Positions 48,705-52,001 of a stretch of DNA of 64,000 nt are shown piece after piece. How positions within the stretch are numbered: position 1 is the first letter of the stretch; every line of letters starts with the position of its first letter. Source of the stretch: Blastococcus saxobsidens DD2 (lineage in GTDB: Bacteria; Actinomycetota; Actinomycetes; Mycobacteriales; Geodermatophilaceae); the NCBI RefSeq assembly GCF_000284015.1, contig NC_016943.1, forward strand, positions 4,381,541 to 4,445,540, in the 5' to 3' direction. A program made the position numbers and the translations under genes. Below the pieces are notes generated by a model that did not search any database, was not told the DNA's origin, and worked only from the letters and a program-made list of their open reading frames with translations.

Positions 48705-50228
48705 TCAGCGCCGGCGCCGGTCACGGCGCGGCGCGAAGGTCCGCCGGACGCGGTGCCAGCGGTTGGGGGTGCGCTCGGCGTCCAGCAGCTCGGTCGCGGC
48801 CAGGGCGCGGTCGACCACGTCCTGTGCCGGCGGCTCGAACGGCCGCAATGTCCGGCCCGCCGGCGTCCGCAGGCTGTCCACCGCACGCGCCAGCGACCCG
48901 TCGTGCTCCTCGACCGCCGCGGCCACCGCGGCCGCGGTGCAGCCGAGGTGCTCGCCGAGCAGGCGGTCCCGGATCGCGAGGAGGGTGCCGGCCACGTCGT
49001 CTCGGCGCGGGTCGTCGGGCCGGGTCTCGATGGTGAGGTCGCACTCCGTGTCCAGGCCCATGGACCGGTTGTTGAGGTTGGAACTGCCGATCCGCATCAG
49101 CCGGTCGTCGACCACCAGCACCTTGGCGTGCACGTACACCGGCCGGCCCTCCTCGGTCACCGGCACGTAGATGCGGAACCGGTCGTGGACGTCGGCCTGC
49201 CGGACGATCTGCAGCAGCCGGGCGCGCGCGGTCCCCATCGCCTTCTCCTCCAGCCAGCCCTCCGCGGACTCCGGGTTCACGAGGACGAACTCGGGGCCGT
49301 CCACCTCGCCCAACCGCTCGGCGATCGCCTCGGCGATCCGGCGGTTGGCGAAGTACTGGGCCTCGATGTAGACGGCGTTCCGGGCGGCCGCGATGGCGGC
49401 CAGCCACAACAGCTCGATCTCCTGCACCAGCTCCGTGCCGCCGTACGCCGGACGGGTGCGCGAGATGGCCACGTCGACGTCGGTGAGCAGCGGCTCCACC
49501 CCGTCCGGCCAGCAGGGCTCGGCGCCCTCGACCGGCTCCAGCCGCCTGCCGGTACCGCTCTCCCACCGCTCCCGGGCCAGATCGCCGAGGGCACGGGCCG
49601 CGGGACCGGAGACCAGGCTGGTGACGTCGTGCCAAGGGCCGGTCGGCCGCCGTGAGGTCGGCCGGTGCCGGTGCCGGTGCCAGTCGGGGTGGTCGGGGGT
49701 GTCCCACCGGTCGGCCGTGACATCGATGCCGCCGGCGAAGGCGAGGCAGTCGTCGACCACCACGATCTTCTGGTGGTGGGCGGCACCCAGCGGGTGGTGG
49801 TGGTCGACGGCGAACCGGAGCCGCTCGTGCGTCCGGCGACGGAGCAGCGGAACCGGCAGCACCCCGCGCCGCAGCGACTCCAGCATCCCCATGCCCCACT
49901 GCAGGACGCCGATCTCGAGCTCGGGATTGGCCCGCACCGCCGCCTCGAGCACCCGCCCGAGCCGATCGTCCCGCGCCCGGCCGGGGGTGCGCGGATCGAG
50001 CCGGATCCGGGGCTCGAAGTCCCAGCCGATGAACAGCACCCGGCGCTCCGCGCGCAGGACCACCTGCTTCAGGACGGCGAAGTAGTCGGCGGCGTCGACG
50101 AACACCACGTGCCGGTCCGCCCGCTCGATCCGCCAGCAGGTCTCGCCCGGCACCAGGACGGTGTCGCCGTCGACGCCCGCGACGGCAGGCCCGGCGCCGT
50201 CGGGCCGCGCCGGCGCGCCGTCAGGCAC
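48705..50228 (-). CDS. Phospholipase D-family protein (two HKD motifs)
   Basis: A protein of up to 507 residues with two HKD motifs: HHQKIVVVDDCLAFAGGID in the first half and HAKVLVVDDRLMRIGSSNLNNRS in the second. Both are complete, so the protein should hydrolyse or transfer phosphodiesters (phospholipase D or cardiolipin-synthase-like). No signal peptide or membrane helix is evident. The GTG at 50228 gives the longest frame but lacks a clear ribosome-binding site, so the N-terminus is uncertain. Confidence 0.88.
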   Translation of the reverse strand: MPDGAPARPDGAGPAVAGVDGDTVLVPGETCWRIERADRHVVFVDAADYFAVLKQVVLRAERRVLFIGWDFEPRIRLDPRTPGRARDDRLGRVLEAAVRANPELEIGVLQWGMGMLESLRRGVLPVPLLRRRTHERLRFAVDHHHPLGAAHHQKIVVVDDCLAFAGGIDVTADRWDTPDHPDWHRHRHRPTSRRPTGPWHDVTSLVSGPAARALGDLARERWESGTGRRLEPVEGAEPCWPDGVEPLLTDVDVAISRTRPAYGGTELVQEIELLWLAAIAAARNAVYIEAQYFANRRIAEAIAERLGEVDGPEFVLVNPESAEGWLEEKAMGTARARLLQIVRQADVHDRFRIYVPVTEEGRPVYVHAKVLVVDDRLMRIGSSNLNNRSMGLDTECDLTIETRPDDPRRDDVAGTLLAIRDRLLGEHLGCTAAAVAAAVEEHDGSLARAVDSLRTPAGRTLRPFEPPAQDVVDRALAATELLDAERTPNRWHRVRRTFAPRRDRRRR

Positions 50229-50402: not shown

Positions 50403-51707
50403 TCAGGCCTGCCCGGCCGGTTGGCTCCGGCGCAGGAGCGCGCCGGCGTCCGCGGCCGGCATCGGCCGGTAGAGCAGGTAGCCCTGCGCCTGGTCCTGGA
50501 TCCGCCGCAGGCCGGCGACGGCGGAGCCGAGCGCGGCCGACACGGTCCGCACCTCGCGGGGCCCGGCCACCTCGACCTCCACCAGCGAGCCCTCGCTGAT
50601 CTGGGTGGCCTGGCCGGCCAGGAGGCGCAGCGCCCGCGCCACGCTGTGGCCGAGGAGGATCGCCCCGAGCAACGAGCCGGCGAGCAGGCTCGCACCCAGG
50701 ACGAACACGAGCTGCAGCCGGTCGTGGGCGCGCTCCCGGTCCGCGGAGACCAGCTCCTGCACCTCCGAGACGGCCGCCGCCACGAGCTCGGTGAGCAGGA
50801 CGCTGCGCTCCTGGCTCGCGAAGATCAGCGTGACCACGTCGCCGATCTCCATGTCCCGCGCGACCCCGGCGCCGAGGCCGGTGGCCAGCACCCCGTCGAC
50901 CCGGGTGACGGCCGGAGAGCCCCGGGTCTCCCGCCACTGCTCGACCAGCGGGTCCTGCGAGAGGCTGTCCATCTGGCGCTGCGCGTCGGTGTAGTCCAGC
51001 CAGGCGGTCTGCCAGGCGGTCCGGGACCCGATGATCGTGTCGCCGCCGCCGGTGAACAGCGAGCCGAGGTAGAGCGGCATCTGCCGGCTGGCGCTCTGGG
51101 CCAGGTGCGCGACCGTCTGCACGTCGCGGATGGCGCGGAGCGTGGCACCGGGAACGCCCTCCGCCGTGGCGGCGGCGGCCGCCGTCTCCTGCGCGGCCAT
51201 GAGGTCGGTGGACACGGCCAGGAAGCCGATGTAGACCTCCTCGACGTCGAGCTCGCCGGAGTGGCTGAGGTTCCGCAGCACGGCGAGATCCGCCGCGGCG
51301 CGGTCGGCCGCCCGGGCGCCGATGGAACCGGCAGGGACCTGGGCGAGCGCCTCGTCGGTGAGCTCGCGGGCACGCTCGGCCTGCTCCATGGCGGTCGAGC
51401 GCTGTGCCTGGAGCAGGGAGGTGGGGATGCCGAGCGCGGCGGCAGCGGCCGGGTCGTCGATCACGTGGAGGGAGAGGATCGGCATCATCTCCCGCTCCGC
51501 ACCGCTGCGGGCGGCGTCGAGCAGCGCCAGGGCGCGCACGGCTGCCTCCGCGCGCTCCGCGCTCTCCGCCTCGGCGGCCCGGGCCTGCGCCGCGGCGGCG
51601 GCCAGGACGACCACGCCGACCAGCGGCAGCAGCACGAGGGCGGCCAGGTACCGCCACAACGGCGCTCCCCGCCGTCGGCCATGGTCGGCTCCCGCGAAGA
51701 TCCGCAC
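50403..51707 (-). CDS. NIT/HAMP membrane sensor with EAL C-terminal remnant (internal deletion)
   Basis: About 434 residues: helix 1 (YLAALVLLPLVGVVVLAAA), a large extracellular nitrate-sensing-like helical domain, helix 2 (LQLVFVLGASLLAGSLLGAILL) and HAMP (RALRLLAGQATQISEGSLVEVEVAGPREVRTVSAAL...). Immediately after HAMP comes AQGYLLYRPMPAADAGALLRR, which is worded like the last strand and helix of an EAL phosphodiesterase domain. The GGDEF and most of the EAL domain are missing without a frameshift, so an in-frame deletion is likely. GTG at 51707 fits the N-terminus; the frame stays open to 51923. It probably no longer makes or breaks c-di-GMP. Confidence 0.75.
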   Translation of the reverse strand: MRIFAGADHGRRRGAPLWRYLAALVLLPLVGVVVLAAAAAQARAAEAESAERAEAAVRALALLDAARSGAEREMMPILSLHVIDDPAAAAALGIPTSLLQAQRSTAMEQAERARELTDEALAQVPAGSIGARAADRAAADLAVLRNLSHSGELDVEEVYIGFLAVSTDLMAAQETAAAAATAEGVPGATLRAIRDVQTVAHLAQSASRQMPLYLGSLFTGGGDTIIGSRTAWQTAWLDYTDAQRQMDSLSQDPLVEQWRETRGSPAVTRVDGVLATGLGAGVARDMEIGDVVTLIFASQERSVLLTELVAAAVSEVQELVSADRERAHDRLQLVFVLGASLLAGSLLGAILLGHSVARALRLLAGQATQISEGSLVEVEVAGPREVRTVSAALGSAVAGLRRIQDQAQGYLLYRPMPAADAGALLRRSQPAGQA

Positions 51708-52001
51708 GATCTCGTATCGGCACCCCGGCGCACGCCTTGAGGGGTCCCGCTGCTCCTTCCGGGTGAGGGCGACCCGGGTCCGGGTGGCCGGGAAGCGCAC
51801 GGTTGCTGTCCGGCGGAAATGTCGGACCCGTCCGCGATGCTCGGCGCCCACCGCAGCACCGAGGAGAACCGTGATCCCCATGCCCGCCCGTCTCGACCGT
51901 CCGGGCACGGCCTGCCCGTCCACGGCGGCACCACGCCTGCCGGCCCGGCTGCGTCGCCGCCGGAGCGTCGTCGTGCCCGCAAGGCTCGACGAGGTGGAGG
52001 T

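Follow-up and report, generated by a model that had tools for sequence, protein, structure and literature searches.

The window, meaning the whole stretch of 64 000 nucleotides that was analysed, contains a gene for a membrane signalling protein that has kept its sensor and lost its output. This gene is very probably the result of a repeat-mediated in-frame deletion that left a young, tolerated loss-of-output allele. As a kind of mutation the event is ordinary; its interest lies in how many c-di-GMP genes of a single genome seem to have been cut recently. Feature coordinates are collected in Table 1.

Table 1. Features of the truncated gene and its upstream region (window coordinates)
Feature	Position	Strand	Details and basis
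Truncated NIT-HAMP gene	50403..51707	minus	434 codons plus stop; open reading frame, protein and orthologues
Leftover EAL C-terminus, 30 residues	50406..50495	minus	29/30 residues as at the end of the full-length protein of G011
Deletion junction, with one copy of the 13-nt repeat left, GACCAGGCGCAGG (coding strand)	50483..50495	minus	BLAST pieces overlap exactly there
Putative HAMP linker (approximate)	50496..50657	minus	Protein residues ~351–404
All-helical sensor, predicted NIT (NasR) fold (approximate)	50730..51611	minus	AlphaFold model residues 33–326
FliA/WhiG-type promoter-like site, CTCAAG-N15-CCGATA	51715..51741	minus	7 nt before the GTG; conserved in orthologues

Gene and product

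The host is a bacterium of soil and stone; its genome is a single contig of 4.88 Mb, with Blastococcus as named relatives. The initial annotation had described a signalling protein that jumps from HAMP straight to an EAL ending; reading frame, strand and coordinates were as it gave them, and the ending matched the orthologue of the nearest relative (G011). The GTG start at 51707 agrees with the start in that relative. The 434-residue product begins with a membrane helix, which is followed by a long all-helical region and another membrane helix (both membrane helices read from the sequence); a probable HAMP linker and the 30-residue EAL end (C-terminal sequence ...VAGLRRIQDQAQGYLLYRPMPAADAGALLRRSQPAGQA) complete it. 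The Pfam scan of the window protein gave nothing above cut-off: HAMP scored 16.8 bits at residues 351–401 (cut-off 25), and a TauE match of 16.5 bits (cut-off 32.6) spanned the sensor end and the membrane helix. HAMP, GGDEF and EAL were all above cut-off in 3/3 full-length relatives scanned. The GGDEF domain present in relatives is missing, and the final 30 residues are the sole remnant of an EAL domain with its catalytic residues, so that the window protein retains no catalytic residue. As had been proposed, the product is a sensor without output: the sensor is intact and the GGDEF domain and the catalytic part of EAL are absent. No known RNA, riboswitches included, was found at gathering thresholds between positions 50000 and 53000.

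An AlphaFold model built with six sequences (mean pLDDT 76.4) was helical throughout, with low confidence at residues 1–15, 366–396 and 406–434. Foldseek returned two matches at E ≤ 0.001, both of them NasR chains. With VIA-align, NasR (4akk) was matched with a Z score of 24.2 over 266 residues, the next protein scoring 11.8. The modelled sensor has the NIT fold and, from the model and the NasR match, is adjacent to membrane helices. The fold was assigned by structural comparison only, the sequence searches being silent: neither Pfam (up to E 1) nor a profile search against sequences in PDB showed NIT or NasR. By analogy with NIT domains, the input is possibly nitrate or nitrite.

Missing segment in relatives

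The sensor of G011 is 76–78% identical to that of the window gene, and the two genomes share the order of the surrounding genes (collinear locus). The G011 protein, of 890 residues, has the same sensor at its start and the same final 30 residues (29/30 identical), with GGDEF and EAL, both above Pfam cut-offs, in between. The EAL tail is not a chance likeness, since this identity is to the C-terminus of an orthologue in the same syntenic locus. In the alignment against full-length relatives that had been recommended, this protein held both halves of the window protein, 456 codons apart.

Sixty genomes were searched with the sensor. All matches outside the own genome (33/33) lay in open frames of 885–1298 aa, against 532 aa for the open frame of the own genome at the window locus. 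The initial annotation had considered that relatives might share the short architecture; with 33/33 other related frames of at least 885 aa, they do not. Direct orthologues were present in a further 12 genomes of the genus, and 10/23 genomes of the genus gave no sensor match. At the DNA level, 16 loci were read, 14 from 12 other genomes of the genus and two from other genera of the family. The extra codons at the junction point numbered 456 in 14/16 loci, 457 in G021 and 454 in G031, and the extra segment corresponds to GGDEF and nearly all of EAL. The earlier reading of an output domain removed with the frame intact is borne out, 1368 nt (456 codons) having gone in frame, compared with its estimate of about 400 residues.

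Deletion junction

The junction, previously indicated near 50490–50510, was located at 50483–50495. Its 13-nt sequence matches two places in relatives: the HAMP/GGDEF linker and a point close to the EAL end. G011 has identical copies at both places (13/13), and exact identity was seen in 5/16 loci. In full-length relatives the best Pfam HAMP stretch (residues ~396–434, above cut-off) crosses the junction point, which means that the deletion has cut through a second HAMP-like unit. The deletion is known from a single assembly, in which an error at such a GC-rich repeat may have arisen. A literature search on such deletions and on c-di-GMP genes in Geodermatophilaceae found nothing on this gene, which is no proof of absence.

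The ancestral gene would have encoded a full membrane c-di-GMP enzyme made of a NIT sensor, HAMP, GGDEF (diguanylate cyclase) and EAL (phosphodiesterase). Replication slippage or single-strand annealing (short-homology recombination) between the 13-nt direct repeats would then have removed 1368 nt, and the frame was left open because the two repeats are in the same codon phase. The product would be made and inserted into the membrane, unable to make or degrade c-di-GMP, and the sensor input would no longer be passed on. In the simplest view, the allele would be a young loss of output, tolerated among the GGDEF and EAL domains of the genome (28 and 22 genome-wide matches, respectively).

Age and constraint

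Three-taxon codon models were fitted to the window gene and G011, together with a single outgroup in each run (G021, G016 or G019). Omega was 0.077–0.097 on the window branch vs 0.062–0.081 on the G011 branch, and a free-ratio model gained less than 1 lnL unit. Letting the leftover tail evolve neutrally over 5% of the branch lowered its likelihood by 1.8–2.5 lnL units (three outgroups used), with branch lengths fixed at values from the saturated three-taxon model. The sensor has 117 positions that do not vary among the 12 relatives, and one of these was changed in the window protein. The same test with each relative in turn gave 1–10 changes, which places the window protein at the low end. Neither the two paralogous loci (G022b, G015b) nor the two other-genus outgroups were part of the codon and invariant-position analyses. 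The deletion looks recent because neither the sensor nor the leftover tail shows relaxed constraint; a short protein that remains under constraint would, however, give the same substitution pattern as a recent event.

Upstream region

In the promoter-like site, every genus row (15/15, counting the window) had CTCAAG and both family outgroups had CTCAGG; CCGATA was found in 14/15 genus rows and TCGATA in one. The DNA around the site is much less conserved than the site itself. The motif resembles, as a variant, the flagellar/WhiG consensus (−35 TAAA, −10 GCCGATAA, as given in PMC8325347). The genome has one match above the TIGR02479 curated cut-off for a FliA/WhiG sigma factor. A relaxed promoter pattern gave three sites genome-wide vs three for the reversed control. 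A regulon drawn from this count was rejected, and positional conservation is the sole promoter evidence because the two counts are equal. A CTCAAG-N-GCCGATA site also precedes a cheB-like gene (L077:328–1794) and a gene whose product looks secreted (L075 near 1501–1528). These are two of the three genome-wide sites, and the gene names were read from the sequence. A second conserved upstream block (GGGTCTGACA-like; gggtccgaca in the window) lies at ~51820–51830 on the minus strand, and sits ~110–120 nt before the start in many orthologues.

Since the promoter-like site has been kept, the short gene is probably still transcribed. The position of the site directly before the GTG suggests a leaderless message. 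PMC8325347 reports diguanylate cyclase and phosphodiesterase genes (DGC/PDE) behind flagellar/WhiG-type promoters in Rubrobacter and RsiG in 16/16 Geodermatophilaceae. A motility-type sigma factor and c-di-GMP may feed back on each other, and the site before the intact orthologues is a lead on such control of c-di-GMP enzymes in the genus.

Other cut c-di-GMP genes and background rate

Two further incomplete genes were found among the EAL matches of the genome. One of them, at 2873960–2874802 of the own genome (G000; L084:2461–3303, minus strand), has a sensor that looks PAS-like from its sequence. Residues 1–204/205 and 205–280 of its protein match the two ends of frames of 707–1134 aa in 6/6 relatives searched, and GGDEF and most of EAL (1224 nt) have been lost in frame (5/5 relatives read at the DNA level). 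No clear repeat was found at this junction. The tail shows no neutral period, and substitution patterns carry no sign of altered selection. The other, a GGDEF-EAL gene at L083:2408–3898 (G000 near 891471, minus strand), lacks ~199 nt inside EAL and has a frameshift in comparison with G021, the single relative read.

An improved census of internal deletions compared 138 orthologue-like genes of G011 and 162 genes of G021 with the own genome. The positives were the window gene, one transporter gene and one low-complexity candidate (G011 250084–252879), the last of which was discounted. In the reverse direction, 0/154 and 1/162 were found. A 54-aa gap in a G021 protein was flagged in one census and is absent from the improved list. 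The transporter gene (G000 ~4569242; 187702 in the joined stretch) has lost ~261–268 codons, with a frameshift; its G011 counterpart encodes 412 aa. Internal deletions were seen in 3/~22 EAL genes vs ~1/299 other genes (Fisher p 0.001, or 0.012 without the window gene). This excess is a hint only, because the EAL genes came from a domain search whereas a different method gave the background, and because the census missed the L083 gene, which makes the background rate a lower bound.

Origin of the short gene

That the 1368 nt are present in the strain and were lost in the sequence, through an assembly or gap-closing error such as PCR jumping between the repeats, is distinctly unlikely. The deletion does look almost brand new, as an artefact would, and three c-di-GMP genes and one transporter gene carry clean internal deletions in the same assembly. 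However, the assembly is a single contig estimated to be 100% complete, and read overlaps are usually longer than a 13-nt repeat. The three junctions also differ in kind (13 nt, almost none and short), and deletions are rare elsewhere: besides the window gene, one clear and one low-complexity case were found among 300 genes tested. It is very improbable that selection keeps the short protein as a sensor-only form or as a dominant partner. A kept role would agree with the intact state of frame, sensor, membrane helices and promoter-like site, but recency accounts for this equally well, and with 33/33 other related frames long, no other searched lineage uses the short form. The dominant partnership with other receptors suggested in the initial annotation is not supported: a search of the genome at E 0.001 gave the window gene as the one member of its sensor family, and so there is no obvious same-sensor dimerisation partner. 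Several congeners carry a second member, 40–44% identical. A single family member together with many GGDEF and EAL domains fits a tolerated loss and speaks against a like-with-like dominant partner.

Selection for the loss may be added as a cause to the repeat-mediated deletion: removing GGDEF/EAL outputs would have been gainful, in nature or in culture, and would have led to parallel hits. The higher proportion of cut EAL genes and the fact that two of the three deletions are in frame point this way, as does experimental evolution of Pseudomonas, in which the c-di-GMP network was the main mutation target according to PMC12440571. The numbers are small, however, the EAL and background screens differ, the background screen missed one of three known cases, and the L084 gene shows no sign of altered selection; selected loss is unlikely, if worth keeping in mind. 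A broader proposal, which we consider rather improbable, is that the lineage actively sheds c-di-GMP output modules. Independent recent deletions, two of them in frame, would have reduced full sensor-enzymes to their sensors, with a motility-type promoter still in front of one or more of them. The cause would be either an advantage of lower c-di-GMP turnover or competition between the leftover sensors and intact receptors.

Comparison with known systems

With repeat-mediated deletion as the preferred reading, the window gene is a clean and roughly dated case of a receptor that has lost its whole output, with frame, sensor and promoter-like site intact and with the repeat that probably caused the deletion still visible. 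Together with the two other cut genes, it is a testable example of c-di-GMP network shrinkage, or a warning about assembly.

The window protein has sensor, C-terminal end and probably HAMP in common with its orthologues, which are NIT-HAMP-GGDEF-EAL proteins of c-di-GMP turnover; unlike them, it is without GGDEF and, bar the final 30 residues, without EAL. With the NIT nitrate-receptor domain of NasR (PDB 4akk) the modelled sensor shares the helical bundles over the aligned length given above. Identity is 12%, the window sensor is flanked by membrane helices, and NasR has an ANTAR output whereas the window protein has none. The promoter-like site resembles the consensus of the c-di-GMP-controlled WhiG/RsiG sigma switch (PMC8325347), of which it is a candidate target by sequence. 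The natural truncations of ycgG and yciR in E. coli, as described in PMC10333796, likewise removed whole c-di-GMP modules within a species. In ycgG, the sensor was lost and an active enzyme kept, whereas the window gene kept the sensor and lost both enzyme domains; yciR lost EAL and became a cyclase, whereas in the window gene GGDEF and EAL are both gone.
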